DNA of 29,329 nucleotides, from positions 1 through 29,329 of IMG/VR virus record IMGVR_UViG_3300025101_000119; one strand, written 5' to 3'. This stretch comes from a virus. Shown one piece after another: positions 169 to 29,329 of the stretch. Below the pieces are notes generated by a model that did no database searches, was not told the origin of the DNA, and worked only from the letters and a program-made list of their open reading frames with translations. A program made the translations under genes and the position numbers. The number at the start of each line of letters is the position of its first letter. Position 1 is the stretch's first letter.

Positions 169-251
169 CTTATAGCAAGACCCAAAAATACAACGTGTAA
201 AGTTTTGGACTTTTGGTTGACAAATCTTTGATTTTACTTAATGATTCGATT

Positions 252-906: not shown

Positions 907-2283
907 ATGGACATAGACTATACACCGACCAAAATATGCAAAGATTTTATGGTATCTGATAGTAAGATGCGTGTACTAATGGGACCTGTAGGTTCTGGCA
1001 AGTCAGTTGCAAGTTGTTTTGAGGTAGTTAGACGAGCCTCTATGCAGAAACCAAATAAGCAAGGCATACGAAAATCAAGGGTAGCTATCGTTCGTGAGAC
1101 TGCTAGACAGTTACAGGATACAACAATAAAAACATTCCACGATTGGTTTCCACCAGGCGTATGTGGAGAATATATGAGAACTACTAAAACTTATTTTCTA
1201 AAGGTAGGTGATGTAGAGTGCGAGATTATGTTTAGAGCATTAGATGATTCAGATGACGTAGCAAACTTAAACTCGTTAGAGTTAACATTTGCTTGGTTTA
1301 ATGAGTGTCGAGATATTAATCCAGATATTGTAGACGCTATGTCAAAACGTATTGGTCGTTTCCCATCAGCTAAAGATGGGGGACCTTCTTGGTTCGGGAT
1401 GTGGGGGGACACCAACCCACCCACAATGGATACGTGGTGGTATTATCAAATGGAACATCTTGACCCCTCGGATGGAGTTTCATTTAATGATAATGGGTGG
1501 GACGTATTCAAACAGCCATCAGGCAGAAGTCAAGATGCAGAAAATATAGAGAACTTACCTGAAGGTTATTACGACACACAAGGTAGGTCGGATGAATATA
1601 TTCGTGTGTACATTGACGGAGAGTATGGATTAAGTACAGCAGGGCAACCTGTGTATAAGTATTTTAGACCTGACTACCATATGGCAGACCAAACTTTACA
1701 ACCAGTTATAAACGGTGTGAGACCAATTATTGTTGGTATGGATTTAGGACTGACACCCGCAGCCGTTATAGGACAACAAGACCCACGAGGTAGAGTTCTT
1801 ATACTAGACGAAGCTGTAAGTTTTGATATGGGTATACAACGATTTATACGTACAGTTTTAAAACCATTGTTAACTGAACGTTTTTCAGCGGCTCCTATAT
1901 TAATTATATCTGACCCTGCAGGTATACAAAGAGCTCAAACAGACGAGCGTTCTGCTGTAGATATAATAAAAGCTGAAGGTTTTAGAGTTATGCCAGCAAG
2001 AACAAATAATGTATCGGCTAGGCTTTCAGCGGTAGATGATTTTCTTATGCGTCAAGTAGATGGCGACTCTGCATTTTTAGTAGACCCTAGATGTACAAGA
2101 TTAAAAGCTGCAATGATGGGAGGATATAGGTTTCATAAAAAGAATGGGACCATAGAAAAGAATAAACATTCGCATGTAGCAGAGGGTTTACAGTATCTAA
2201 TGTTACATATAAACAGTACATCAGATGGATTTATTACTAAAAAAAGAGACATAAAACCTGTTGCGGCAGGCGGATGGACTTGA
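907..2283 (+). CDS. terL: Terminase large subunit (ATPase-nuclease)
   Basis: This is the packaging motor: an N-terminal ATPase pumps DNA into the procapsid and a C-terminal RNase H-like nuclease cuts it. At 458 aa it is full length for the family. Visible motifs are a Walker A loop GPVGSGKS (26-33), a Walker B with catalytic Glu, LTFAWFNE (126-133), and the nuclease acidic residues Asp279 (GMDLG) and Asp336 (SDPAG). The C-terminal HVAEGLQYL segment carries Glu426 where most relatives have Asp. It starts one base after the upstream stop. A transcription break (two hairpins) follows the gene. Confidence 0.95.
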   Translation: MDIDYTPTKICKDFMVSDSKMRVLMGPVGSGKSVASCFEVVRRASMQKPNKQGIRKSRVAIVRETARQLQDTTIKTFHDWFPPGVCGEYMRTTKTYFLKVGDVECEIMFRALDDSDDVANLNSLELTFAWFNECRDINPDIVDAMSKRIGRFPSAKDGGPSWFGMWGDTNPPTMDTWWYYQMEHLDPSDGVSFNDNGWDVFKQPSGRSQDAENIENLPEGYYDTQGRSDEYIRVYIDGEYGLSTAGQPVYKYFRPDYHMADQTLQPVINGVRPIIVGMDLGLTPAAVIGQQDPRGRVLILDEAVSFDMGIQRFIRTVLKPLLTERFSAAPILIISDPAGIQRAQTDERSAVDIIKAEGFRVMPARTNNVSARLSAVDDFLMRQVDGDSAFLVDPRCTRLKAAMMGGYRFHKKNGTIEKNKHSHVAEGLQYLMLHINSTSDGFITKKRDIKPVAAGGWT

Positions 2284-2315
2284 TATGCTGAATGTAGTTA
2301 TTCATATTTACTACC

Positions 2316-2344
2316 ATAATTATGATGTTTCCTCTCATAATTAT
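2316..2344 (+). other. Perfect AT-rich hairpin, first of a tandem pair
   Basis: ATAATTATGA (2316-2325) and TCATAATTAT (2335-2344) are perfect inverted repeats around a 9-base loop. It lies 15 bases upstream of a second perfect hairpin after the terminase gene. The stem is AT-rich with only one G-C pair, so it is less stable than its neighbour. It may assist termination or protect the 3' end of the transcript. Confidence 0.6.
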
Positions 2345-2358
2345 ACTTTCTCTACTAT

Positions 2359-2388
2359 ACCCTGCTTATATTTACTCCTAAGCAGGGT
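2359..2388 (+). terminator. Probable transcription terminator after terL
   Basis: ACCCTGCTTA (2359-2368) and TAAGCAGGGT (2379-2388) form a perfect 10-bp stem with a 10-base loop. It is followed by a pyrimidine-rich, T-rich stretch (2389-2400) rather than a pure T run. Its place between the terminase gene and a candidate promoter supports a terminator role. Confidence 0.7.
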
Positions 2389-2398
2389 CCTCTTTCTA

Positions 2399-2427
2399 TT
2401 GGACAATGATGTAATAAAGTATATACT
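2399..2427 (+). promoter_or_regulatory. Candidate sigma70-type promoter for the virion operon
   Basis: TTGGAC (2399-2404), a 17-base spacer, and TATACT (2422-2427) match the bacterial housekeeping promoter consensus at 5 of 6 and 5 of 6 positions with ideal spacing. It begins 10 bases after the terminator stem and ends 22 bases before the next ATG, whose GGAGG lies in between. The order terminator, promoter, ribosome-binding site fits a fresh transcription start for all downstream virion genes. Confidence 0.65.
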
Positions 2428-2449
2428 CAAAATAAATCGGAGGTAAATT

Positions 2450-2692
2450 ATGCCAGGATATAAAAATTATACTATTAAAAAATACAGAGGCGGTGGTCTT
2501 GTAGAAACTAAAAAGTATGAAGACGGTAAAACGGTAGTAACAGAAGATGAAAGAATGAAAGCTATGCAACAATTCTTAAACGAAGATACTTCTAAAGAAG
2601 AGGTCACTGTAATAATAAAAGATTCTAAAAAGAATCCGAATAAATATACAGACATAATGGGCGTACCCATTAAAAAACCAGAGCCTAAATAA
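2450..2692 (+). CDS. Small Lys-rich protein before portal, unknown
   Basis: This 80-aa protein is the first gene after the intergenic promoter and has a strong GGAGG about 6 bases before its ATG. It is rich in Lys, Glu and Thr, with a beta-like N-terminus (GGGLVETKKYEDGKTVVTEDE) followed by a short helix and a VTVIIKD strand, and a Pro/Lys tail. No family is recognised. It ends 3 bases before the portal gene, so a role in head assembly is possible by position. Confidence 0.7.
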   Translation: MPGYKNYTIKKYRGGGLVETKKYEDGKTVVTEDERMKAMQQFLNEDTSKEEVTVIIKDSKKNPNKYTDIMGVPIKKPEPK

Positions 2693-2695
2693 ATT

Positions 2696-4732
2696 ATGGT
2701 ATTACAAGTAATAGGGAACGAAGAGCTCGTTAAAAAAGAGAAAGAGCAAATTGATAAAGCTTTAGAAGAAAGGCAGAATGAGCCTTTGATTTTAGGTTTA
2801 GCTGCACACCTTCGTGAATGTTGGGATGCAGCAAAACGTGCTAAGAAGCCTATCGAAAATATTATGCTTAAAGGACTTCGCCAAAGGAATGGTGAGTATG
2901 AGGCTGACAAGAAAGCCCAGATACAAGCACAAGGTGGCTCTGATATATACATGATGATTACGGAAGTTAAGTGTAGAGCTGCCGAAAGTTGGCTCCGTGA
3001 TATATTATTAGAGACAGGCACTCCCCCATGGGATTTACAGTCTACACCAATACCTGAGCTAGAACCCGAGCATGCACAAGAATTACAAAATAGTTTTGCG
3101 TCCGAAGTTGTAAAAATAGTAGAGCTTGAAGGACAAGCACCAGACCCAGCAAAAATGGAAGAGCTTAGAGAAATGGTAGCTCAACAATATAGATTTAAAT
3201 TATTACAGGCTGCCGATAATAGGGCTCGTAAAATGAAAATAAAAATACAAGACCAATTTGCACAAGGCGGTTGGGGTGAGTCATTTAACGATTTTATTAC
3301 AGACTTAGTAACTTATCCATGTGCTTTTATTAAAGGGCCTATTGTTCGTAGGCAAAGGAAGTTAAGTTACACTAAAGACGAAATGGGTAACACCACAGTA
3401 GAAGCTGATGAAATTATTGCACCAGAGTTTGAGCGTGTTGACCCGTTTAGAGTATACCCAGAACCTGGAATTACTAATATCAATGACGGATATATATTTG
3501 AACATCACCCACTTAGCCGTACAGAATTAGCAGATTTAGTTGGTGTTCCAGGATATGATGACGATGCTATTAGAAAAGTATTAGAGTATGGTAATGGAGA
3601 TTCTTGGATATCAGAAGATGTAGAGTTATCTAAAGATGAAGAAGAAAGAAAGTTTCATTCGTCTGACAGACCGACAGAAATATATGACGCATTAGAATTT
3701 TGGGGTAAAGTAAGCGGTAAAATGCTTGTAGAATGGGGATTAACTGAAGATGAAGTACCTGATGAAGCTCGTGAGTATGATACAAACGTGTGGATGGTAG
3801 GTAATTATGTTATCAAAGCAGTATTAAATTATGACCCATTAGGTGAAAAACCGTATGCAAAAACCTCATTTATTAAATGCCCAGGTGCATTTTGGGGTAA
3901 AGGCATACCAGAAATTATAGAAGATTTACAAAATGTATGTAATGCAGCAGCTCGTGCGTTAGTTAATAACATGGGTATATCAAGTGGGCCACAGGTTGAA
4001 GTTAACCTTGAAAGGATTCCACCAAATGAAGACATTACACAAATGCACCCATGGAAAATATGGCAAGTTACTAATGACCCATTAGGCTCTAGTGCTCCTG
4101 CAGTTAGGTTTAACCAACCTAACGATAATGCAAATACATTAATGGGTGTGTATGAAAGATTTGCTAAATTAGCTGATGACCATTCAGGTATACCATCTTA
4201 TTTACAAGGCGACATAAACGTAAAAGGAGCAGGACGTACAGCGTCTGGTCTTTCAATGTTGATGGGGTCTGCAGGAAAAGGGATACGTCAAGTGGTTATG
4301 CACATAGATAGTGATGTTATAAAACCTGTTGTACACAGACAATTTGTGTATAATATGCGATATGATGAAGATGAGTCTATTAAAGGCGATGTAGAGGTTC
4401 TACCAAAAGGTGCAATCAATCTCGCAGTTAAAGAAACTGTTAACGTCAGAAGAATAGAATTTCTTAACGCAACCGCCAATGAAATCGATATGGGTATCGT
4501 TGGTAAAGAAGGCCGTGCAGCGATACTTCGTGAAGTGGCTAAGAGTTTGCAAATGCCTGTGGATGAAATCGTTCCTTCTAGGGAGAAAGGAAGTTACCAG
4601 ACTAGGATGGCTAAAGAGTTTGCGGCTGAACAAGCACAGCAATCTCCTACACCTACCCAGCCAGATGGCTCCCCTAAAGGAGGAATGGAAGCAAACACAG
4701 TTAGTAACCGTAACACTGGAGGTAAGTCTTGA
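2696..4732 (+). CDS. Portal protein (P22-like portal group)
   Basis: The portal forms the ring at one capsid vertex through which DNA enters and leaves and to which the tail attaches. The 678-aa length is near the P22 portal (about 725 aa). Recognisable stretches are VDPFRVYPEPG around residue 245, a long wing/stem region with GKGIPEIIEDLQNVCNAAARAL near 400-420, and GDINVKGAGRTASGLSMLMG near 505-525, typical of podovirus portals of marine phages. The C-terminal tail is Gln/Pro/Gly-rich and probably disordered. The ribosome-binding site is weak, suggesting coupling to the upstream gene. The stop overlaps the TTG start of the next gene. Confidence 0.9.
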   Translation: MVLQVIGNEELVKKEKEQIDKALEERQNEPLILGLAAHLRECWDAAKRAKKPIENIMLKGLRQRNGEYEADKKAQIQAQGGSDIYMMITEVKCRAAESWLRDILLETGTPPWDLQSTPIPELEPEHAQELQNSFASEVVKIVELEGQAPDPAKMEELREMVAQQYRFKLLQAADNRARKMKIKIQDQFAQGGWGESFNDFITDLVTYPCAFIKGPIVRRQRKLSYTKDEMGNTTVEADEIIAPEFERVDPFRVYPEPGITNINDGYIFEHHPLSRTELADLVGVPGYDDDAIRKVLEYGNGDSWISEDVELSKDEEERKFHSSDRPTEIYDALEFWGKVSGKMLVEWGLTEDEVPDEAREYDTNVWMVGNYVIKAVLNYDPLGEKPYAKTSFIKCPGAFWGKGIPEIIEDLQNVCNAAARALVNNMGISSGPQVEVNLERIPPNEDITQMHPWKIWQVTNDPLGSSAPAVRFNQPNDNANTLMGVYERFAKLADDHSGIPSYLQGDINVKGAGRTASGLSMLMGSAGKGIRQVVMHIDSDVIKPVVHRQFVYNMRYDEDESIKGDVEVLPKGAINLAVKETVNVRRIEFLNATANEIDMGIVGKEGRAAILREVAKSLQMPVDEIVPSREKGSYQTRMAKEFAAEQAQQSPTPTQPDGSPKGGMEANTVSNRNTGGKS

Positions 4733-4944
4733 TTAGACCAGACCCAGAAGTTATTAAGGCTTTAGCCGTATTGGCACGCCAACACCCCCCAGCACTGGAA
4801 TGGCTGAAGGGATGGTTAGACCATGAGTTAAAGCAGCTACCCAATGTTACTCAAAACGTGTCACTTGCACAGGGGCGGTGTCAAGTTTTGAAAGAAATAT
4901 ACACTTTAGTAAAAGAGTCCCCTGATAACGCAGCAAAGTCATGA
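4729..4944 (+). CDS. Small helical protein after portal, unknown
   Basis: This 71-aa protein starts at a TTG that overlaps the portal stop, with GGAGG (4718-4722) 6 bases upstream; this site decides the start. It is mostly helical, with a Trp-containing amphipathic stretch (ALEWLKGWLDHELKQL) and a second helix CQVLKEIYTLVKE. Small helical proteins of this kind sit between portal and scaffold in related phages, but I know no function for them. No membrane segment or catalytic motif is visible. Confidence 0.65.
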   Translation: MIRPDPEVIKALAVLARQHPPALEWLKGWLDHELKQLPNVTQNVSLAQGRCQVLKEIYTLVKESPDNAAKS

Positions 4945-4958
4945 CGACAGCTGTTAAT

Positions 4959-4973
4959 TAACGCATACCGTTA
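4959..4973 (+). promoter_or_regulatory. Small hairpin touching scaffold ribosome-binding site
   Basis: TAACG (4959-4963) pairs with CGTTA (4969-4973) around the loop CATAC. The 3' arm abuts GGAG (4974-4977), the ribosome-binding site of the scaffold gene at 4987. A 5-bp stem is weak. It might modulate scaffold translation, which phages often control tightly, but no direct evidence exists here. Confidence 0.3.
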
Positions 4974-4986
4974 GGAGCGAAACATT

Positions 4987-6030
4987 ATGTCATTACCAAA
5001 GCAAGTTCAAAAACAATCTGAGGATGTACAAGCGTTGTATAAAGAACTTAACAAAGAAACAGCGGAAGCACCTGCTGGTTTAGATTCAGGAGAAAAAGTG
5101 CCTGAAGAAAAACAAGCTGAAACTACCACTGAAGTACCTGTTGAGGAAGATACAACTGCAACTTCCGACAGTGTAGAAAAACAAGCAACTGAGTCTGAGG
5201 CTGAAGAGCACAGCACAACAGACACAAAAGAAGAAAAAGATACATGGGAACAAAAGTATAAAACATTACAAGGCATGTATAATAAAGAAGTTCCGAGCTT
5301 AAGTGCTCAGAACAGACAATTAAACGGCCGTGTTTCTCAATTAGAAACTTTGTTAGGAGACCTTAACAAACAAGCAGAACCAGTGCAGGAGGCACCAGTC
5401 GAGAAGTTAATTACGGAAGACGATGTTAAAGAGTACGGTGATTCTATTGATGTTATGCGTAGAGCAGCAAAGGAAGAAGTAGCAGGAGAATTGGCTCGTG
5501 TTAGACAACTGGAAGCGGAAATAGCTAAGTTGAAAGGCGTAGTACCACAGGTACAACAAGTCCAACAACAACAAAAAACTAGTTCTGAAAAACAGTTTTG
5601 GGATACTTTAAACCATGAAGTACCTAATTGGAACGAAATTAATAGTGACCAAGACTTTCAGTCATGGCTGCTTGAGATTGACCCCCTTACAGGTATTACT
5701 CGCCAAACTTATTTAGAAGACGCACAGCGTAAACTAGATGTTAGTAGGGTAGTAAATTTCTTTAAAGCTTTTGGGAAGGATATAGGTAAAGATGATAATG
5801 CTCGTGGAAAAGGTTCTACGCAATCTGCAGAATTACAAAAACAAGTTGCCCCAGGACGAGGACGTGCTGGACAACCTGTAAGTAATGATGGCAAAACTTA
5901 TACACCGAAAGACATTGAAAAATTTTTTAAAGATGTTAGAACGGGTAAGTATAAGGGAAGAGATGATGAGCGTAACCGAATGGAACGTGACATTTTCGCT
6001 GCACAGCGGGAAGGTCGCATAGTTAATTAA
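4987..6030 (+). CDS. Capsid scaffolding protein
   Basis: Scaffold directs coat protein to form a procapsid of correct size and is then removed. Assignment rests on position between portal and coat and on composition. The 347 residues have a very acidic, Ala/Glu/Thr-rich N-terminal third (10-90), a coiled-coil stretch near 95-127 (LSAQNRQLNGRVSQLETLLGDL), a second coil near 165-185, a Gln-rich linker, and a compact region near 205-265 (FWDTLNHEVPNWNEINSD). A strongly basic helical C-terminus (KDIEKFFKDVRTGKYKGRDD) resembles the coat-binding end of P22-type scaffolds. A small hairpin precedes its ribosome-binding site. Confidence 0.85.
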   Translation: MSLPKQVQKQSEDVQALYKELNKETAEAPAGLDSGEKVPEEKQAETTTEVPVEEDTTATSDSVEKQATESEAEEHSTTDTKEEKDTWEQKYKTLQGMYNKEVPSLSAQNRQLNGRVSQLETLLGDLNKQAEPVQEAPVEKLITEDDVKEYGDSIDVMRRAAKEEVAGELARVRQLEAEIAKLKGVVPQVQQVQQQQKTSSEKQFWDTLNHEVPNWNEINSDQDFQSWLLEIDPLTGITRQTYLEDAQRKLDVSRVVNFFKAFGKDIGKDDNARGKGSTQSAELQKQVAPGRGRAGQPVSNDGKTYTPKDIEKFFKDVRTGKYKGRDDERNRMERDIFAAQREGRIVN

Positions 6031-6048
6031 TAGTAAAAGGAGGCTATT

Positions 6049-6954
6049 ATGGCTTTTGCAACATCTCCAGGTCATCCAACGTATACAGGAAACTTTATAC
6101 CTGAAATTTGGTCTGGAAAATTAATTGAGAATTTCTATGATGCTACTGTGTTATCAGCAATCTCAAACACTGACTACGAAGGTGAAATTCGTAACATGGG
6201 TGATACGGTCAATATCCGTACAACTCCAGAAATCACCATTAAAACATACGTTAAAGGTCAAACTTTAGCGGTTGAAAACCCAGATAAACCAAAATTACAA
6301 TTATTAATCGACAAAGGCGAATACTTCGCTTGTGTTGAAGATGATGTAGATGAGGTACAATCAGACATTGCAATGATGGACCAATGGTCTAAAGACGCTT
6401 CAGAGCGTATGAAGATTAAAATTGACCAACGTGTATTAACTGATTTGTTAACTGGTGTACATGCTAGTAATAAAGGACAAACAGCTGGAGCTATCTCTGG
6501 TAACATTGACCTTGGTGTAGCAGGTACTCCAGAAGCACTTACTACTTCAAATGTAATTGGTAAAATTGTTGACATGGGTACAGTTCTTGACGAAGCTAAC
6601 TGTCCTGAACAGGGTCGTTTTTTATGTATCCCTGCTAAGATGGCTGGTTTAATCAAGCAATCAGACTTAAAAGATGCATCTATTACTGGTGACGGAAATT
6701 CACCATTAAGAAATGGTCGTTTAGGTATGATAGATAGATTTACAGTATATGTAAGTCATAACCTTTATAAGAACGGAAGTGAGTTTAGCGTTATTGCTGG
6801 ACACACAATGGGGTTTACATTTGCGTCACAAATGACAAATATGGAAACAATTCGTTCAGAAACAACTTTTGGTAACATCATTCGTGGTCTTCAAGTTTAC
6901 GGTTATAAAGTCGTTAAACCTGAAGCTCTTGCTACAATGATTGTTACAGTTTAA
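6049..6954 (+). CDS. Major capsid (coat) protein
   Basis: At 301 aa this is the main shell protein, expected to take the HK97 fold. It follows scaffold directly and has the strongest ribosome-binding site type in the window (AGGAGGCTA, 7 bases before the ATG). The N-terminus (FIPEIWSGKLIENFYDATVL), the central GEYFACVEDDVDEVQSD, and the C-terminal IDRFTVYVSHNLY and FGNIIRGLQVYGYKVV resemble coat proteins assigned to the P22 gp5-like group in marine phages. It is shorter than P22 coat (about 430 aa), so it may lack the inserted domain. Codon use is more regular (GGT, GAC, CGT) than in neighbours, fitting high expression. Confidence 0.9.
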   Translation: MAFATSPGHPTYTGNFIPEIWSGKLIENFYDATVLSAISNTDYEGEIRNMGDTVNIRTTPEITIKTYVKGQTLAVENPDKPKLQLLIDKGEYFACVEDDVDEVQSDIAMMDQWSKDASERMKIKIDQRVLTDLLTGVHASNKGQTAGAISGNIDLGVAGTPEALTTSNVIGKIVDMGTVLDEANCPEQGRFLCIPAKMAGLIKQSDLKDASITGDGNSPLRNGRLGMIDRFTVYVSHNLYKNGSEFSVIAGHTMGFTFASQMTNMETIRSETTFGNIIRGLQVYGYKVVKPEALATMIVTV

Positions 6955-6966
6955 TAGGAGGCTAAC

Positions 6967-7434
6967 ATGGCTGCATATACAGACTCGCATGGCTTTGATA
7001 AAGGTTCTGCGGCACATCCTGCTCAGGGCGTTAACAGAGTCGGCTACATGGAAGTAAATTTAAACTTCGCTACTATAACTGCGGACAGAGCTACAGCAGG
7101 TGCTACGGCACTAGCGGCTGGAGATTCTATCGAAGTACTTAGCGTACCAGCGAACACTTTAGTGTTGGCGGTAGGTGCAACTACAGTAACTGCAGAAGGT
7201 GCGGCATCAACATTTGACATCGGTTTAACTGGTGGTGATGTTGATTTGTTTGTTGATGGAGGTGATGCTAACTCAGCGGGAACCACTTCATCAAACGGTG
7301 CAGGGCTAGATGGCGATAACCAAAGCCATTACTTTGCAGCTGCAGACACTATTGATATGCTTATTGGTGTATCAGGTGCTGTAACTGACACCGCTGTAAT
7401 TAAAGTATGGGCGGTTGTTGTTGACTGTTCATAA
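6967..7434 (+). CDS. Probable capsid decoration protein
   Basis: This 155-aa protein follows coat by 12 bases with the same GGAGGCTAAC leader, which suggests similarly high expression. It is rich in Ala, Gly, Asp, Val and Thr, nearly free of Lys and Arg after residue 30, and reads as a beta-strand protein with glycine loops. There is no signal peptide or catalytic motif. Position and composition fit an outer-capsid decoration protein, but the family is not recognised. It is followed by a perfect hairpin, so coat and this gene may share a transcript end. Confidence 0.65.
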   Translation: MAAYTDSHGFDKGSAAHPAQGVNRVGYMEVNLNFATITADRATAGATALAAGDSIEVLSVPANTLVLAVGATTVTAEGAASTFDIGLTGGDVDLFVDGGDANSAGTTSSNGAGLDGDNQSHYFAAADTIDMLIGVSGAVTDTAVIKVWAVVVDCS

Positions 7435-7449
7435 TAAAACATAGCAACG

Positions 7450-7476
7450 GTCGGAGGGTAACTATAACCCTCCGAC
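7450..7476 (+). terminator. Perfect GC-rich hairpin after capsid genes
   Basis: GTCGGAGGGT (7450-7459) and ACCCTCCGAC (7467-7476) form a perfect 10-bp stem with a 7-base loop, 16 bases after the stop at 7434. It is the most stable hairpin seen in the window. No T tract follows, so it may be a weak terminator or a 3'-end stabiliser that sets the ratio of capsid to tail transcripts. Confidence 0.6.
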
Positions 7477-7495
7477 TAACTAAATGGAGGCAAAA

Positions 7496-7744
7496 ATGGC
7501 AGGAAGATGGTTAAGAAATAAAAAAGATGGTGAAATTTATGGGTGGAATGAAATACTTTCAGAAAACCCAGACACTGAAGAAGTGACTGAAGAACAGGCT
7601 TTTCCAGAAAGATTTATACCAAAAAAACAAAAAGCAAGAAAAACTAAAGTTAAATTAAAAACAGAAGTAATACCTGAAGACGAAAAAGCTGTTAACATAG
7701 AGTTAGCAGAAGAAGCAACTAAAGGTATAGATAAGAAGAAATGA
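7496..7744 (+). CDS. Small charged protein before head-tail adaptor
   Basis: I place the start at the ATG at 7496 (82 aa), because GGAGG (7486-7490) lies 5 bases upstream of it. An ATG at 7484 overlaps this site and is less likely. The N-terminus AGRWLRNKKDGEIYGWNE forms a short Trp-containing motif that recurs in small proteins found between coat and adaptor genes of marine phages. The remainder is Lys/Glu-rich and probably disordered. It overlaps the next gene by 4 bases (ATGA). Function unknown; a head-completion or adaptor partner is possible by position. Confidence 0.7.
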   Translation: MAGRWLRNKKDGEIYGWNEILSENPDTEEVTEEQAFPERFIPKKQKARKTKVKLKTEVIPEDEKAVNIELAEEATKGIDKKK

Positions 7745-8406
7745 TTTTAAATGATGTCATTACTGAAGTTAGAAGAATATTACAGGATGAAAACAGTCCA
7801 CAAAGGTATTCTGACACTGTACTTTTAGGGTTTGCAAACCAAGCTTTAAAACGTATTGCAGTAATTAGACCTGATTTATTTGCTTATATGGGTACAGTTG
7901 CATGTACACAAAATGAAGTACTGCAATCAACTCCAAGCGATTCTATAAGACTAATCGAAGTATTTTCTGTTCAAGGAGGTAATGGGGTAACGGAAGTTAA
8001 TAGAGAAGTATTAGACCAGTCATACCCTCAATGGGTTTCTGATACTGCAGGTGCTTGTAAAAATTTTATGAGACATGCTAGAAATCCAAATAAATTTTTT
8101 ATATACCCTAAAGCTCCAGCTAATCAAACATTAGTTGTAGAGTATTCGCAATCTCCTCAAGTTTATGACGGCACAACGACAGTAGCTTTACTACCAGACG
8201 CTTTTTTACCAGCTGTTGTAGACGGTACAGTATTTTTAGCTGAGTCTATTGATAACGAACATGTTAATTCAGGTAGAGCAGACTTATTTTTAAGGTCGTT
8301 TACACAAGCATTAGGTGTTTCAGCTTCTAATAGAATATTTACAGACACAGAAGCAGGTGGGTTACAACCCGTTAACAAACAAAAGATTGAAGAGGACCTC
8401 ACATAA
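7741..8406 (+). CDS. Head-tail adaptor protein (DUF6682-like)
   Basis: At 221 aa this is a likely adaptor bound beneath the portal. The N-terminal helix pattern (NDVITEVRRILQDENSPQ followed by LLGFANQALKRIAVIRPDLF) and the middle segment with RHARNPNKFFIYPKAP resemble the phage adaptor family often annotated DUF6682. Family naming is from memory and moderately sure. It overlaps the gene before by 4 bases and the gene after by 1 base, so translation of the three is probably coupled. No signal or membrane segment. Confidence 0.75.
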   Translation: MILNDVITEVRRILQDENSPQRYSDTVLLGFANQALKRIAVIRPDLFAYMGTVACTQNEVLQSTPSDSIRLIEVFSVQGGNGVTEVNREVLDQSYPQWVSDTAGACKNFMRHARNPNKFFIYPKAPANQTLVVEYSQSPQVYDGTTTVALLPDAFLPAVVDGTVFLAESIDNEHVNSGRADLFLRSFTQALGVSASNRIFTDTEAGGLQPVNKQKIEEDLT

Positions 8407-9062
8407 TGGCTGGAACTAGAACATTTATTGATATTGTAAATAGATTATTACCAAGTGTACCTGGGTGTCCAACACCTGTTGTAGAAAATTATGTTCGTGA
8501 TGCAGCAATCGAAGCGTGTGAACGTACTCTAGCTTGGAGGTATGAACAACCACGAATACGTTTGGTTGTGGGTGCCCATGATTATATATATGAAAGTCCT
8601 AGTAATGCTGAAGTGCATGCTTTTATTACAGCTACTGTAAATGATGAAGTATTAACTCCTGTTACATTAGATAAGTTATATGAATTATACCCTAAATGGC
8701 CAAACCAACCCACTACATCAAGAGCGAAACCTAGGCATATAGCCCAATTAGACCCAGACCATTTTTCAGTTGCACCTGTACCTGACGATACTGAGTCATA
8801 TGATGTAAGAATGATTGTGTGTTTAAAACCATTAAGAACAGCAGATAGTATGGATAAGTCTGTTTTAGATGAATTAGAAAATGTTATTATGCATGGAGCA
8901 CTACAGCATTTGTTGGTATTACCTGACAATAACTGGAGTGATAGAGAACTAGCTTCTTATCATGCAAAACAATTTGCATTTAAGTTATCAGAGCGTAGAG
9001 CTAGAGCTAATCTAGGTGCAGGGCGAGCATCTATAAGAATTAAAGGACAACCTTTTGGGTAG
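8406..9062 (+). CDS. Second head-tail adaptor / tail-completion protein
   Basis: This 218-aa protein starts within the stop codon of the first adaptor. Its pattern is an N-terminal helix pair (VENYVRDAAIEACERTLAWRY), a beta-rich middle with HDYIYESPSNAEVHAF and HFSVAPVPDD, and a C-terminal helical region with LENVIMHGALQHLLVLPDN and a basic tail. It resembles tail or connector completion proteins encoded just before the tail genes in many podoviruses. The arrangement portal, coat, adaptor 1, adaptor 2 supports a role in joining the head to the tail nozzle encoded at 19778. Confidence 0.7.
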   Translation: MAGTRTFIDIVNRLLPSVPGCPTPVVENYVRDAAIEACERTLAWRYEQPRIRLVVGAHDYIYESPSNAEVHAFITATVNDEVLTPVTLDKLYELYPKWPNQPTTSRAKPRHIAQLDPDHFSVAPVPDDTESYDVRMIVCLKPLRTADSMDKSVLDELENVIMHGALQHLLVLPDNNWSDRELASYHAKQFAFKLSERRARANLGAGRASIRIKGQPFG

Positions 9063-9068
9063 TGAAAT

Positions 9069-9401
9069 ATGGCAGATGTAATTAAATTAGTAAAAGGAGA
9101 TGAGTTACCGTTAATTATATTAACTTTAACTGATGATGTAGCTAACACAGCACTAGATTTATCGGCTGGGACTACTTCAGTAACTGTAAAATTTAAAGCT
9201 GTAGGTGGAACATCAGTGTTATCTACAATAAGTTGTGCAAAAACAACAGATGGCTCAGATGGTAAGATACAATTTAGTTTTTCAGGTGGTGTATTAGATG
9301 TTGATGAAGGTTCGTATGAAGGAGAGATTATAGTTAATTATAATGGTAGCTTACATACAGTATATGATTTATTAAAATTTAGAGTAAGGAGTAGTTTCTA
9401 G
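9069..9401 (+). CDS. BppU-like Ig-fold tail protein
   Basis: This 110-aa protein looks like a stand-alone copy of the N-terminal domain of phage baseplate upper protein (BppU_N): an opening KGDELPLIILTLTDD, a central VTVKFKAVGGTSVLST, and an ending DEGSYEGEIIVNYNGSLHTV, all predicted beta strands of an Ig-like sandwich. In BppU the domain docks fibres to the tail. Here it is a separate cistron at the head of the fibre cassette. The ribosome-binding site is weak, and the stop overlaps the GTG of the next gene. Confidence 0.7.
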   Translation: MADVIKLVKGDELPLIILTLTDDVANTALDLSAGTTSVTVKFKAVGGTSVLSTISCAKTTDGSDGKIQFSFSGGVLDVDEGSYEGEIIVNYNGSLHTVYDLLKFRVRSSF

Positions 9402-10111
9402 TGGCTAATATAAGACTTACATCCGCTTTAGCAGCAACAGCCATATCATTTACAGTAAGTGTTAGTAGCATTTCTTCAGCTGTATCTGGTGAAACAGAAG
9501 TTGTTGCGTCTTCAGCTTTAGGAACAAGCATATCATTTAGCCATGAATTAATACCAACTAGAACTATAGCAGGTATTTCAGTTAGTATATCAGAAGTAGA
9601 TATAAAAACTGTAAGTTCTGTTTTAAGTGACACACCATCTATAACAGAAAGTCCAGCTATAAATGTAAGTCAAGTTTCTACTGATTCATTTTCTGTATCA
9701 GATGCTCCAGTATTTAATCTTTCACAAGTTCTAGCTGATACAGCTACTATTTCAGCAACACCAAGTAAAATATTTCAATCTGAAGTTGATTTTGATTTAT
9801 CTGATTCTGATATAGACCCAGACCCAGTTACTGTGTCTGATGTTATTGTTGTTCAGTTTGAATATGATTTAGCAGATACACCATCTATAGCAGATTCACC
9901 AGCATTAAATGTAACACCTGCAGGTAAATCAGATAGTTTTTCTGTTTCAGATTCACCAGTGTTACAACCAAGTTTAGCACCAACAGATAGTGTTACACCT
10001 GGGGACAGCGGTGGATTAGTAATCAATTACGTGTATACTGATGTAGATGACACTACATTAGGAGGACATTATTTTAACCAAACTCCAATTAATCCTGGAG
10101 GGTATGAATAG
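9401..10111 (+). CDS. Ser/Asp-rich repeat tail protein
   Basis: This 236-aa protein starts at a GTG overlapping the previous stop, with AGGAG (9387-9391) 9 bases upstream. Residues about 15-210 are Ser/Asp/Thr/Val-rich with imperfect repeats, for example DTPSITESPAINV matched by DTPSIADSPALNV, and DSFSVSDAPV matched by DSFSVSDSPV. Lys and Arg are almost absent. The C-terminus (YVYTDVDDTTLGGHYFNQTP) differs from the repeats and may be the attachment point. Such low-complexity beta repeats occur in tail-fibre and adhesin stalks. Its place next to a BppU-like protein supports a tail appendage role. No catalytic motif. Confidence 0.65.
   Translation: MANIRLTSALAATAISFTVSVSSISSAVSGETEVVASSALGTSISFSHELIPTRTIAGISVSISEVDIKTVSSVLSDTPSITESPAINVSQVSTDSFSVSDAPVFNLSQVLADTATISATPSKIFQSEVDFDLSDSDIDPDPVTVSDVIVVQFEYDLADTPSIADSPALNVTPAGKSDSFSVSDSPVLQPSLAPTDSVTPGDSGGLVINYVYTDVDDTTLGGHYFNQTPINPGGYE
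9629..9991 (+). repeat. Imperfect in-gene repeat, 246-base period
   Basis: Two copies of about 117 bases start at 9629 and 9875 in the same frame, each encoding DTPSI-x-x-SPA-(I/L)NV and then DSFSVSD-x-PV. The divergence is mostly synonymous or conservative, which points to duplication followed by drift inside a fibre stalk gene. Confidence 0.6.
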
Positions 10112-10121
10112 AGGATAAATT

Positions 10122-10562
10122 ATGATAAGTGATTTAATAAAAATTAAAGGTGATTTAAAAATTACAGTCACCAATCCAGAAGGTAAAATTAAACAGGAAG
10201 TAGAAGTTCCTAATTTAGTTGTTACTACAGGAAAAAACTTTATTGCATCTAGAATGAAAGATGCTAGTGCTACTGCTATGACACATATGGCTATTGGCAC
10301 AGGTAGTACTTCAGCAGCAGCTGGGAATACAGCTCTTGGCAGTGAAGCAGGACGAGTAGCACTTACGTCTACAACTGTTACTGATAATGCTGTAGCTTAC
10401 GTTGCGTCTTTTCCAGCAGGAACAGGCACTGGAGCAATAACTGAAGCAGGACTACTTAATGCAAGTTCAAGCGGAACTTTGCTATGTAGGACTGTGTTTT
10501 CTGTAATTAATAAAGCTTCTGGGGATACATTAGGTATTACTTGGACTGTAACTGTAAGTTAA
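10122..10562 (+). CDS. Tail structural protein, beta-rich
   Basis: At 146 aa, with an N-terminal strand pair (GDLKITVTNPEGKIKQEVEV), a conserved NLVVTTGKNFIASRM turn, and a distinctive AIGTGSTSAAAGNTALGSEAGR segment followed by GAITEAGLLNASSSGTLLCR. This pattern is widespread in short proteins within phage tail modules and is usually annotated only as a structural or tail-fibre-associated protein. It sits between the repeat protein and the cupredoxin fibre. No signal peptide. A baseplate or fibre-base role is inferred from location. Confidence 0.7.
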   Translation: MISDLIKIKGDLKITVTNPEGKIKQEVEVPNLVVTTGKNFIASRMKDASATAMTHMAIGTGSTSAAAGNTALGSEAGRVALTSTTVTDNAVAYVASFPAGTGTGAITEAGLLNASSSGTLLCRTVFSVINKASGDTLGITWTVTVS

Positions 10563-10580: not shown

Positions 10581-12017
10581 ATGACTGTTCTATTTAAAAA
10601 CAATGCTCATTCAACATTAGCTTCCAGCATTACGGATTCTGCTACAAGTATTACTCTTGCATCAGGTCATGGAAATGCTAGGTTTCCAGTTACAGCAAGC
10701 CCAAATTATTTTTACGCAACTCTTATAGATGGTTCAAATAACTTAGAAGTTGTAAAATGTACTGCAAGGTCTAGTGATGTCCTTACAGTTGTTAGAGCTC
10801 AAGAAGGTACCTCAGCAAGAGCTTATTCTACAGGTGATAGAATAGAGCTTAGAATTACAGCACAAGGTTTAGAAGATTTAAATGGTACACGAGCTAGTGA
10901 ATATAAATCAGATTGGGGTAGTTCATCAGCCCCTATAACTCATACTGTAACTGTTGGAACTAAAACAGGTGCACATCCGTATACAGGCGTAGGTTCTAGT
11001 AATGCTTATTTTATAGACAACATAGAGTCGCCTGTTCTAGCGTTTGATGGTGCAGATACAGGCAAAACTTATTACTATAGGTTTGACCAAGCTGATGCAA
11101 GTAATGACGGACACCCTTTAAGATTTTATTTAAACGCTGCAAAAAGCACAGCTTATACAACTAATGTAACAACAAATGGTACACCTGGTACTGCTGGTGC
11201 ATACACACAGATTCAAGTAGATGAGTACACTCCAAACCTATTGTACTATCAATGTAGCAGTCATGCTCACATGGGTAATTACATACATCATATTTCTAAT
11301 ATGCATAATAGCAATGGCGTGTTGTTTAAAATGCCAACATCAGATGGTTCTGCTGGACAAATATTAAAAACTGATGGCTCTGGAGTATTAAGTTTTGTAG
11401 CAGCAGCAACAGCTACATACCCAACCGTTACAGGAGTAACTCCTTCAGCTACAGGTAATACTGCGGGTAACCTTGTTATTGCGGGGACAAATTTTGTTGT
11501 AGGGTGTCATGTAGAATTTATAAATTCATCTGGGGTTATAACCCTACCAAACAGTATTGTTAGGGATTCAGCTACACAGCTTACAGTTAATGTAACATTA
11601 GGCACAGATGGCACATATTTTATTAGAGTTGAAAACCCTGATGGTTTAGCAGCTCGTAGCTCATCAGCAATACTTACAGTCTCAGATGCACCTACATGGT
11701 CTACGTCTGCTGGAAGCTTAGGCGAGGTTGCAGCAGGGGCATCAGTATCTTTAGATGTAGATGCCTCATCAGACTCAACAGTAGCGTTTAGCGAAACTAC
11801 AAGTGTGCTAACCAGTAATACTGACACACCTGCAAGTACCATGAATTTAACTCTCAACTCGTCTACAGGTGCAATTACAGGCACAGCTCCTAACGCAACG
11901 AGTGATACAACATATAATTTTACCTTACGAGCAACAGATGCAGAATCGCAAACAGCAGACAGGGCATTTAGTATTACAGTAGCGGTAGGAATTAACAACT
12001 CAGGACAATTTAACTAA
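10581..12017 (+). CDS. Multidomain tail fibre with cupredoxin-like domain
   Basis: This 478-aa protein has four regions. Residues 1-100 form a domain shared with the protein encoded at 14594 (both contain YFYATLID and NNLEVVK). Residues about 115-240 look like a cupredoxin: His178 (NDGHPLRF) and the cluster Cys225, His228, Met231 in YYQCSSHAHMGN sit where type 1 copper ligands are expected. Residues about 280-367 match an IPT/TIG Ig-like domain, and about 370-470 a cadherin- or He_PIG-like Ig domain. It is a likely virion-exposed adhesin. Related cupredoxin-like segments occur in marine phage structural proteins. Copper binding is inferred from motif only. Confidence 0.75.
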   Translation: MTVLFKNNAHSTLASSITDSATSITLASGHGNARFPVTASPNYFYATLIDGSNNLEVVKCTARSSDVLTVVRAQEGTSARAYSTGDRIELRITAQGLEDLNGTRASEYKSDWGSSSAPITHTVTVGTKTGAHPYTGVGSSNAYFIDNIESPVLAFDGADTGKTYYYRFDQADASNDGHPLRFYLNAAKSTAYTTNVTTNGTPGTAGAYTQIQVDEYTPNLLYYQCSSHAHMGNYIHHISNMHNSNGVLFKMPTSDGSAGQILKTDGSGVLSFVAAATATYPTVTGVTPSATGNTAGNLVIAGTNFVVGCHVEFINSSGVITLPNSIVRDSATQLTVNVTLGTDGTYFIRVENPDGLAARSSSAILTVSDAPTWSTSAGSLGEVAAGASVSLDVDASSDSTVAFSETTSVLTSNTDTPASTMNLTLNSSTGAITGTAPNATSDTTYNFTLRATDAESQTADRAFSITVAVGINNSGQFN

Positions 12018-15748: not shown

Positions 15749-15913
15749 ATGCCAATGGGAAAAGGAACATATGGAAACAAAGTAGGTAGACCAAAAAAAC
15801 TGAAGTTCGGTACGGGCGGAAAAGTCAAAAAGAACAAAAAAGGAAAGTTCATGTACGGTATGGGCGGTAAAGTAATTAGCTCTACAAGAATGAAAAAAGG
15901 TAGTTGCAAATAA
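15749..15913 (+). CDS. Small basic Gly/Lys-rich protein
   Basis: At 54 aa, extremely basic and glycine-rich (KFGTGGKVKKNKKGKFMYGMGGKV), with no acidic residues. AGGAGA (15737-15742) precedes the ATG at 15749 by 6 bases, so I prefer this start over the longer upstream frame. The two near-repeats (FGTGGKVKKNKKGKF and YGMGGKVISSTRMKKG) suggest a duplicated nucleic-acid-contacting element. The stop overlaps the start of another small basic gene. It may bind DNA or be packaged in the virion, inferred from charge. Confidence 0.65.
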   Translation: MPMGKGTYGNKVGRPKKLKFGTGGKVKKNKKGKFMYGMGGKVISSTRMKKGSCK

Positions 15914-16083
15914 TGGCTGCAGGTACTAAACATTATTTTAGAGATGGTAGAGAGTTTAAAGGTGCTGTGCATAAAATGCCTAATGGTCAAATCCATACAG
16001 GTAAAACGCACACTGCATCGTCTAAACGAGTCTTTCATTTTAAAGATTTATCTGCCAAATCTAAAAAAGTAGCGAGAGGATAA
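15913..16083 (+). CDS. Small basic protein (56 aa), unknown
   Basis: It starts in the stop codon of the previous gene and ends in the start codon of the next (one-base overlap at each end), strong evidence that it is a real cistron in a coupled operon. The protein is His/Lys/Arg-rich (KHYFRDGREFKGAVHKMP; HTGKTHTASSKRV) with no signal or membrane segment. The repeated G-x-x-H/T-x-GK pattern is reminiscent of small phage proteins of unknown function. Binding to DNA or virion components is inferred from charge. Confidence 0.65.
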   Translation: MAAGTKHYFRDGREFKGAVHKMPNGQIHTGKTHTASSKRVFHFKDLSAKSKKVARG

Positions 16084-26906: not shown

Positions 26907-29329
26907 ATGGTAGAAAAAGTAGGCTTAACAACTCCTCAAACAACTTCAGACATAACTACATCTGAAGGTTTAGGTGTAGGAAGTTTTGGTAATCCTTATT
27001 TACCGCAAGATTCTTCTGGTGCTCTCGAAAAAGATATTACAAAAACTTCAGCTTTACTTGACATTGTTACAGATACATCACAACTAGAAGAACCTGAGCA
27101 AGTAGACTTAGGCCCACAAGTTTTATTTAGCCCATCAACTAAAAAGATGTTTGTCAATGGTGCTACTTTTGATGTTGACGATTACCAATCAGCGTTAGAC
27201 GCAAAACAATTTTTAACACAACCAACGGCTCCAGCCCCTGTAGATGTAGCAGAGGATTGGGTTAGAGTAAGTCCAGATACTTTTACTAAGTATATACAAG
27301 ATATAAAAAATCCTAGCTTAGGCAGACTAGCTTCTAAAAATTTTGATATTGGTGTAGATAATTTAAAGTTATTAGCTGGTAGAGGTTTACAATTTTATGG
27401 TAAGGAAGAAACAGGTAAAGAGTGGGTTGACGAAGCATTAACAGATTTATACAAAAACCAACCATTTCAAAGAGAATTCCAAAACGAATCAGGTGAGTTT
27501 GTATCTAATGGTTTAGTCGATTGGTTTGTAGCAAACTTAGCACAGCAAGGTCCTATGATATTAGAATCTATTGCTGTAGCTTTAGTCGGTGGTGTTGCAG
27601 GTGGAGTAGCTGGTGGAGGTGCAAACCCATTTACAGCCCTCGGTGGTAGTTTATCTGCTTTGATGAGTAAAGAATCATTTAAACAAGGTGTATTGGCTGC
27701 TGCTAAAAAATACAGTAAAGGACAACCAATGACTGTTGGTGAGAAAAAACTTCTTCGTGAAGTATCAGGCATGGCTGGTGCAACAAAAGTTAAGAATGAT
27801 GTTTTTTATAATAACCCGTTTACAGGTGCGAAAAACAGAGCTATTAGAGATGATGCTTTAGAATATAGTGGAGCTAAAATAGCAGGAAAAGGTGGTGCAA
27901 CTCAAGCCCGTATAGGTGGTGCAGCAGGATTTTCTATACTAGGAGCTCAACAATTAGGTCAAGCTGACATTTATGGAGAAGTCAGAGAAACTGGTGTTGG
28001 TGATAGAGGCACAGCTTTTCTAGGTTCGTTCCCTTATGCTGCGGCTGAAGTTATACCTGAGTTTTTTCTAGCGGGTAAAGTACTAGGTTTAAACCCAGCT
28101 AAAATGAGAACGGGTGCTGACGTATTAAAACGTGGGCCTAAAAATATTTTTAGAAGAGCTGGTGAAGGTATTGCAGTTGGTGGTGCATTAGAAGGTGCTA
28201 CTGAATTAGCACAAGAAAGTATACTATTAGGTGGTACAGACCAGCTAGGAGATGCTGGTACATATAGAAGATTACTCAATGCGTTTGCAGCAGGTTTTGC
28301 AATCGGTGGTCCTATCGGTGGTATTGCAAATCTTAAAACGGACAAGGTTGCTGATGTATTAAATCCAGAAAGTAACAAAGACCCAGAGCCAGAAACTACT
28401 TCACAGAAACCACCAGAGCCAGATGAGACTGGGCAACTTCCACTATTTGGGCCCGAAGTAACATCAAGAACTAGAGATACTAGAAGGAATCCAACAGGTG
28501 TTCCACAACCTGAACCTGTAGAAACACCACAACCTACACAGCTAGATATTTTTGGTGGAGAAGAAATTATACCTACACAACCAGAAGTAGAAACAGACCC
28601 AAATCAACTAGAATTAGATTTAGCTGGGCAACAAGCTGCTGCAACAGGACAACAAAGTTTACTTACACCAACAGGTCGTGCTAGAAACAGAAGAAGGCAA
28701 CAAGCTGGAGCAACTGGAGCAGCTGCAACAGCTGGGCCATCTGCATCTAACCTTCAAGTTTCTGGCCCTATAGGTTCACCTGCATTGGTACCTAATCCAG
28801 TTTTGCAACAAGTTCAACAAAATAGACAACCTCCTGTTCAAACTACTGGTCAAGTTTCTGACCCTATAGGTTCACCTATACCTGCATCTAATCCAATTTT
28901 GCAAACAATTCAACAAACTAGTCAGCCCGAAGTAAAACCAGAAACAGATATAAACAACGATTTATATAAATTAAAAACAGGTAGAACTATAAGTACTTTT
29001 AACCAACAAGATTTATTAGACCAAAGAGACAGATTAATACGTAAGAAAAAATTAACTAAAAGAGAAGACAAAGACCTTCAAGCTGTTACAGCTGCTATTA
29101 GTAGGCGTGAAGCTGCTATGGCAACAGGTGCTGCAGCAAGTGTTGGGGCTGAAAATAGATTACAAGAAATTGTTAACGAACAAAAACAAATAGAGAAAGA
29201 TAATAAACGAAACGCAGCTATTTTAAGAAAAGCTGAAAGAGAAGAAATAGAAAGAATCCGTAAAGCTAGAAAATTTGCAGATGATAATAATGTAGACCGA
29301 AACTCTCCAGAATTTTTACAACAATATAA
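26907..29329 (+). CDS. Large internal virion (ejection) protein, 3' partial
   Basis: The frame is open from the ATG at 26907 (AAGGAG upstream) to the window end, 807 codons without a stop. The last complete codon is Tyr and the remaining AA cannot be a stop, so the gene continues. The region near residues 205-250 (MILESIAVALVGGVAGGVAG) and later AVGGALEGATELAQESILLG and AAGFAIGGPIGGIANL are glycine-zipper membrane-active segments. Residues about 490-690 are Pro/Gln/Thr-rich with a 32-residue repeat. The rest is charged and coiled. A lytic transglycosylase domain, common in such proteins, is not seen in the part present. Confidence 0.8.
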   Translation, partial: MVEKVGLTTPQTTSDITTSEGLGVGSFGNPYLPQDSSGALEKDITKTSALLDIVTDTSQLEEPEQVDLGPQVLFSPSTKKMFVNGATFDVDDYQSALDAKQFLTQPTAPAPVDVAEDWVRVSPDTFTKYIQDIKNPSLGRLASKNFDIGVDNLKLLAGRGLQFYGKEETGKEWVDEALTDLYKNQPFQREFQNESGEFVSNGLVDWFVANLAQQGPMILESIAVALVGGVAGGVAGGGANPFTALGGSLSALMSKESFKQGVLAAAKKYSKGQPMTVGEKKLLREVSGMAGATKVKNDVFYNNPFTGAKNRAIRDDALEYSGAKIAGKGGATQARIGGAAGFSILGAQQLGQADIYGEVRETGVGDRGTAFLGSFPYAAAEVIPEFFLAGKVLGLNPAKMRTGADVLKRGPKNIFRRAGEGIAVGGALEGATELAQESILLGGTDQLGDAGTYRRLLNAFAAGFAIGGPIGGIANLKTDKVADVLNPESNKDPEPETTSQKPPEPDETGQLPLFGPEVTSRTRDTRRNPTGVPQPEPVETPQPTQLDIFGGEEIIPTQPEVETDPNQLELDLAGQQAAATGQQSLLTPTGRARNRRRQQAGATGAAATAGPSASNLQVSGPIGSPALVPNPVLQQVQQNRQPPVQTTGQVSDPIGSPIPASNPILQTIQQTSQPEVKPETDINNDLYKLKTGRTISTFNQQDLLDQRDRLIRKKKLTKREDKDLQAVTAAISRREAAMATGAAASVGAENRLQEIVNEQKQIEKDNKRNAAILRKAEREEIERIRKARKFADDNNVDRNSPEFLQQY
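28755..28926 (+). repeat. Tandem repeat, 96-base period
   Basis: Two copies start at 28755 and 28851, each beginning CAAGTTTCTG then CCCTATAGGTTCACCT, keeping frame with the ejection-protein gene. They encode QVSGPIGSPALVPNPVLQ and QVSDPIGSPIPASNPILQ. Spacing is exactly 32 codons. The repeat lies in a Pro/Gln-rich linker, where copy-number change would alter linker length. Confidence 0.75.

Follow-up and report, generated by a model that had tools for sequence, protein, structure and literature searches.

A conserved transcription-unit boundary predicted between the packaging and virion genes of a marine phage group

Gene layout and the gap downstream of terL

The DNA analysed here (the window) comprises positions 1–29,329 of virus record IMGVR_UViG_3300025101_000119, a length of 29,329 bases, and belongs to a common group of marine phages that is known here from metagenomic contigs alone. 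Its packaging block lies on the plus strand and consists of a terS-like ORF (252–737; 161 aa), a small ORF (622–906; 94 aa) without a family match in profile scans and the gene for the terminase large subunit (TerL; 907–2283; 458 aa), which matches PF04466 (1.4e-7) and phrog_2 (1.9e-24). The virion block begins on the same strand with an 80-aa ORF (2450–2692), to which no family was assigned, and an SU10-like portal protein (2696–4732; PF23899, 6.8e-16; phrog_332, 1.8e-53), and includes the major head protein (6049–6954), identified by family matches. A giant late gene occupies 26907–29327 of the window and 2155–10461 of relative L108; the version in relative G002, equated with it on position alone, encodes 2768 aa. 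Matches were to phage families annotated without function and to no others.

The nearest isolates in a phage collection that may omit very near records are distant. TerL is 44.3% identical to that of Pseudomonas phage Rollin, and the head protein is 56.0% identical to that of Rhizobium phage RHph_TM3_14A and 33.0% to that of HMO-2011, a head-protein relative whose TerL is not among the 40 TerL hits listed. The boundary described below is not seen in these three phages: only 9 bases separate TerL from the next gene in Rollin and 10 bases at the same place in HMO-2011, and the portal gene of RHph_TM3_14A runs the opposite way. At least 600 stretches in IMG/VR encode TerL relatives, of which the best 80 (82–100% identity) were kept. 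Two contigs (L061 and L079) break off ahead of the terL stop codon; among the 79 loci counted with the window, 78 have at least 150 bases past that stop. The 165 bases downstream of it gave 49 distinct sequences, the window's own included; these relatives share descent, and counts across the gaps are not independent samples.

The gap between terL and the 80-aa ORF spans 2284–2449 (166 bases). A first-pass annotation of the window had called it the longest inside the gene array, which is true among the hand-picked genes with two exceptions, the 245 bases that open the window and a gap of 169 bases at 15914–16082; the latter holds an unlisted 56-codon ORF that starts at 15913. Direct reading confirms the elements that had been noted within the gap, namely two perfect 10-bp inverted repeats on the plus strand at 2316–2344 (hairpin 1, AT-rich, ATAATTATGA-9-TCATAATTAT) and 2359–2388 (hairpin 2, ACCCTGCTTA-10-TAAGCAGGGT), followed by TTGGAC (2399–2404) and, 17 bases later, TATACT (2422–2427).

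Perfect 10-bp stems with loops of 3–12 bases occur three times in the 29,329 bases, compared with a mean of 0.35 (s.d. 0.75) in 60 dinucleotide shuffles, and none of the 60 shuffles contains two such stems within 70 bases. The third stem (7450–7476), a GC-rich hairpin, stands one gene further on than the major head protein, at the end of that next gene; it lacks a U tract in the window, and a hairpin of differing sequence is found at the equivalent place in many relatives, in a comparison of 41 rows of which several show coding sequence owing to wrong offsets. The segment 2284–2434 has a folding energy of −29.2 (z = −3.12), which 2 of 200 shuffles equalled. A terminator scan listed neither hairpin of the gap because it allowed loops of 3–8 bases and these loops have 9 and 10, and no Rfam family matched in the window at the gathering score.

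Hairpin 2 as a candidate intrinsic terminator

The folding energy of hairpin 2 in the window is −14.5 kcal/mol (z = −5.30), or −14.0 kcal/mol in the scan across all gaps. The hairpin is present in all 49 distinct gaps when two scans are combined: copies with an internal mismatch in L026 and L033 were missed by the first scan and found by the second, and in L012 and L035 the automatic choice, which requires at least five T and may trim stems, took another hairpin, so that the expected one, seen in the earlier scan, was given hand-set ends. The stem is followed directly by an imperfect, pyrimidine-rich U tract, CCTCTTTCTATT (2389–2400, plus strand). At least five of the nine bases after hairpin 2 are T in 47 of the 49 gaps; the exceptions are L012, with an interrupted tail, and L035, with none. 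The window itself has five T in nine, interrupted by C, and many relatives carry TTTTTT or TTTTTCTTG at this position.

Covariation was assessed in three alignments: A1 (nine sequences, the window's clade), A2 (eight sequences) and A3 (30 of the 49, omitting L035 and 18 sequences close to others already in A3). The consensus fold of A1 missed hairpin 2, the stems being out of register in that alignment. In A3, 86.3% of the cells pair, compared with 69.6% in shuffles and at most 60.0% when the two arms are slid, and 50 cells differ on both sides, compared with 18.3 in shuffles. The covariation score is 0.561 versus 0.265 in shuffles that do not preserve kinship among the sequences (0 of 500 reach it) and at most 0.192 in slid controls. 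The other two of the five measures are not striking: changes on both sides affect eight of nine pairs (6.6 expected; 28 of 500 shuffles reach this) and further pair types number 20 (18.0 expected; 76 of 500). The sequence of the stem differs from clade to clade while its base pairing is retained. Together these observations are good evidence that hairpin 2 is a selected RNA hairpin.

This free variation of sequence, with covariation pointing to folded RNA, speaks against a role of the gap as a packaging signal (cos or pac), with inverted repeats that terminase would bind close to the gene encoding it. Such a site would suit the inverted repeats and a position next to the terminase gene, TTCATATTT is invariant in the nine sequences of the closest clade and one 21.8-kb contig (L066) ends one base past the terL stop. 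However, 68 of 78 loci extend 500 bases or more beyond the gap, and the remaining contig ends fall at scattered places without a pile-up, although contig ends are a weak test; contigs of ∼54 kb carry terL at many offsets. We consider a packaging signal very unlikely.

In intrinsic (Rho-independent) terminators of bacteria and phages, the end of a gene is followed at once by a stable stem that leads into a U-rich tail. Both elements are found here, as a stable, structurally conserved hairpin and, at sequence level, a U-rich tract immediately after the stem, and hairpin 2 with its tail is best read as a terminator of this type. The copy in the window departs from the classic form in its 10-nt loop and C-interrupted U tract, and many relatives have cleaner tails. 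With −14.0 kcal/mol and the tail CCTCTTTCT, it is among the weakest of the set; therefore, leakage is likely, and termination in this genome is probably partial. The break in transcription that had been proposed for this gap is thus supported, as a prediction, by the conserved position and structure of hairpin 2 and by the U-rich tail that nearly all distinct gaps (47 of 49) share.

Hairpin 1 (−7.0 kcal/mol; z = −4.85) is strong for its composition. It is co-located in the window's clade and in an eight-member subclade (L015, L016, L017, L020, L021, L026, L027 and L033), and its stem is short or missing in distant clades. In the two alignments in which it was scored, none of its pairs changes on both sides; by eye, ATAGTTATA pairs with TATAACTAT in L008 and L012, a compensatory change missed in the alignment. 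The view of the tandem hairpins as one device is more weakly supported than the transcription break, and we tentatively regard hairpin 1 as accessory to the 3′ end. An anti-Shine–Dalgarno role for CCTC in the loop of hairpin 1 was considered and dropped, as this motif is not constant by eye (L002, L006 and L027 differ).

The candidate promoter of the virion unit

TTGGAC matches the consensus TTGACA at only three of six positions; shifting the register by one base gives TGGACA-16-TATACT, which scores 10 of 12. The candidate promoter T-TGGACA-16-TATACT (2399–2427, plus strand) would start transcription at 2434, the seventh base after the −10 box, just upstream of the Shine–Dalgarno sequence GGAGG (2439–2443) of the first virion-unit gene. 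The first 20 kb contain 61 promoter-like sites, compared with 64.6 (s.d. 8.3) in shuffles. A bare match is therefore at chance level, and support comes from conservation: of the 49 gaps, 38 have TATACT downstream of the terminator, where chance would give 4.7, and 17 contain a promoter scoring 10 of 12, compared with 3.2% of shuffles. Fifteen of these 17 have the form TNGACA-16-TATACT, and the remaining two, L013 and L014, score elsewhere (ATGACA-18-GATAAT). The chance level of the promoter match is what one would expect if a chance pair of hairpins and a chance promoter match had met in an AT-rich spacer; the rarity of the stems, the covariation of hairpin 2 and the conservation of position in 49 distinct gaps speak against such a coincidence, to which we give almost no weight.

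The −35 and −10 boxes, 16–18 nt apart, are clear in the window's clade and in part of the others. Within the window's clade AAGTATATACTC is kept and the spacer is mostly variable; exact AAGTATATACTC occurs once in the window when both strands are searched. The −35 box is TGGACA in most members, TGGATA in L008 and L012 and TGTATA in L013 and L014. A second clade, to which L023 and L034 belong, has a −35 box whose TTG overlaps the T tract of the terminator (TTTTTCTTG). No clear promoter was found in the eight-member subclade or in L035. In this subclade the stretch from terminator to ribosome site is cut to about 27–29 bases; by eye, a weak remnant of the promoter might survive within the 3′ arm of the hairpin as TAGACA, with TANNNT 17 bases further on. 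The TATACT of L027 sits inside the U tract, off promoter spacing. L069, L071 and L074–L076 likewise have no clear promoter at the exact spot used by the window, and a better pair of boxes (TTGCGT-17-TATAAA or similar, by eye) may lie further on. The restart of transcription that had been suggested together with the break therefore stands as a prediction for the window's clade and many relatives, but not for the eight-member subclade and L035, nor for the exact spot in L069, L071 and L074–L076. Conservation in related phages, put forward in the first-pass annotation as a check, was found for hairpin 2 (49 of 49) and TATACT (38 of 49), but for hairpin 1 only in the nearer clades.

A Shine–Dalgarno-like match to a loose pattern precedes the next start in 47 of 49 gaps, 37 of these with GGAGG; L007 and L071 have no match, and the matches in L035, L074 and L075 are unconvincing. 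By eye, several relatives share AACTTG-NN-TRTATACT, which includes part of the promoter spacer. A candidate regulator motif, ACTTGNNTNTATACTT, was found with at most one mismatch in six of nine records and was set aside, since the match in G008 lies only outside the gap and a reversed control also gave two hits.

The promoter-poor subclade, whose virion genes otherwise have no clear start here, would be accommodated if the main role of the hairpins were in stabilizing or maturing the terminase mRNA at its 3′ end, as stem-loops or an RNase site, with transcription largely reading through. The imperfect U tract of the window fits such a role, as does the hairpin at 7450–7476, which, kept in many relatives and without a U tract in the window, suggests that non-classic hairpins are used. 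However, a mere stabilizer would not need the U-rich tail that follows hairpin 2 in 47 of 49 gaps, and we regard end protection as improbable.

Transcription of the virion genes by the host RNA polymerase, as envisaged previously, is consistent with these motifs. No RNA polymerase family was reported for the window and relative proteins scanned, which cover part of the ORFs. A search with PF00940 matched nowhere, controls included, and was not used as a negative.

The predicted terminase unit and the proposed arrangement

Upstream of the terS-like ORF, TTGACA-17-AATGAT (217–245, plus strand) forms a second candidate promoter, identified by motif scan and comparison with relatives. The ATG at 252 lies 6 nt after its −10 box and has no Shine–Dalgarno sequence. 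A search for the terS-like gene gave 76 hits; after removal of four partial ones, the remaining 72 contained 37 distinct upstream sequences, all of which, the window's included, carry TTGACA. The −10 box, assigned by best match, lies 16–18 bases after TTGACA, and its distance to the ATG is 6 nt in 28 sequences, 7 in three, 8 in one and 9 in five; a Shine–Dalgarno-like tetramer precedes the ATG in one of 37. The spacing of 6–9 nt would thus place the start on or just before the ATG, and the terS-like gene is predicted to be translated from a leaderless message; at the level of sequence, the locus shows both a promoter that puts +1 at or near the start codon and the lack of a Shine–Dalgarno sequence. 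The whole promoter–ATG pattern occurs once per record in 13 of 13 records, with one reversed-control hit, in the window; having been derived from the same sequences, it tests uniqueness only.

Among 53 distinct sequences, 46 carry an exact divergent TTGACA on the other strand at a distance of 150–204 nt, compared with 0.77 expected from shuffles, and by locus the figure is 53 of 66; without regard to position, 56 of 68 loci have a TTGACA within 420 bases. Beyond the terS-like ORF, relative G001 has genes of opposite orientation, among them members of the DNA polymerase A, helicase, nuclease and single-strand-binding families.

The label 'terS-like' rests mainly on position, to which a weak fold match is added, because the predicted fold is of low confidence and no Foldseek E value is significant. 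The protein matches phrog_36773, a family annotated without function, and no solved relative was found by sequence (best E = 0.3). Its AlphaFold2 model has a mean pLDDT of 63.9. Foldseek rows for this model include the small terminases of PaP3, E217, NV1 and Sf6 and also unrelated helical proteins, none with E ≤ 0.001. In VIA-align comparisons of the same low-confidence model, the phage protein 2ao9 gives Z = 9.1 (61 residues, r.m.s.d. 1.8), E217 TerS gives Z = 5.9 (103 residues, r.m.s.d. 7.4) and the small terminases as a set give Z = 4.2–5.9.

The sequence itself shows the two hairpins and how they are conserved, as well as the promoter motifs and the order of the genes; from these features we infer termination, initiation, the start positions, leaderless translation and a difference in expression. 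Our preferred interpretation, with a probability of about 0.78, is that two transcription units meet at the gap in a conserved boundary, made up of a terminator and then a promoter, and that both are read by a host-type (sigma-70) polymerase. The first unit (∼2.0 kb), consisting of the terS-like ORF, the small ORF and terL, would start at the TTGACA promoter, with a predicted +1 on the terS-like ATG or at most three bases before it, and would end at hairpin 2 and its U-rich tail, termination being probably partial in this genome. The second unit (the 80-aa ORF, portal, capsid and onward) would restart at TGGACA-16-TATACT with a short leader and GGAGG. Since the blocks are separated by a conserved predicted stop signal, in most cases with a start signal behind it, the packaging and particle-building genes are probably made as separate messages. 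The likely purpose would be separate control, in amount and perhaps in time, of terminase, of which few copies are needed, and of the abundant virion proteins. Expression of the two sets at different levels or times, as had been suggested from the window sequence, is plausible and is helped by the separate promoter, with a predicted leaderless start for terminase and a Shine–Dalgarno-type start for the virion genes.

A more elaborate form of this arrangement, which we put forward tentatively and consider doubtful as it stands, makes the leaderless terminase unit early and has the terminator bar early polymerase from a virion operon that awaits its own promoter. The terminase TTGACA promoter and the divergent one directed at the replication genes belong to one class, so that the former might be read soon after entry, and the AACTTG-NN-TRTATACT motif in the virion promoter spacer may bind a phage regulator.

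Returning to the two-unit boundary, it appears real and conserved, and ordinary in kind, as a predicted terminator and then a promoter; it supplies a concrete conserved transcription-unit boundary for a common marine phage group. The less expected part is the predicted leaderless start, by which a packaging gene would be translated from a leaderless message. Literature searches, which could not use a group name, found no transcript map for this group, and the word 'promoter' is missing from the main-text portions available of two papers on HMO-2011-type phages (PMC9038755 and PMC6918029). In the parts consulted of PMC4351075, PMC11373665, PMC3342100, PMC9004378, PMC11845039, PMC6471424 and PMC6210493 no leaderless message is tied to a terminase; in the last four, 'leaderless' appears there only in the reference list.

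In the accessible text on LUZ100 and T7, a local promoter and terminator set the level of the capsid gene (PMC10134795). The present arrangement is similar in that the expression of a single block inside the late region would depend on a promoter and a terminator; it differs in that termination would isolate the terminase genes and in that the promoters look sigma-70-like, whereas there a phage-specific promoter serves the major capsid gene. Divergent SigA-like promoters and predicted leaderless mRNAs are described in a passage on cluster O mycobacteriophages (PMC4351075), which resemble the window in having divergent promoters in one intergenic region and a predicted +1 that coincides with the start codon's first base but differ in host group and genes, and that passage gives no tie to terminase. 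A leaderless transcript is also predicted for one gene of phage Adephagia, according to an excerpt (PMC11373665). The cI transcript of phage lambda is leaderless (PMC3342100); there, as predicted here, transcription and translation start at the AUG without a ribosome-binding site, but cI is a known repressor message, unlike the predicted message of the terS-like gene.

Some minor features were observed on the replication side. The divergent TTGACA of the window lies at about 17–45 on the minus strand, facing the replication genes. Among the replication-side genes of relative L082 are an HslV-family peptidase (10667–11149; phrog_1040) and a DUF2201 metallopeptidase/VWA-like protein (7308–8462). 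Between the divergent promoters of the window, at about 115–155, are a G tract and a C tract (GGGAGGGTAGTTGGACT...CACCCCCCC), with similar tracts in some close relatives; a hairpin, an origin or a terminase site are possible roles for this element.
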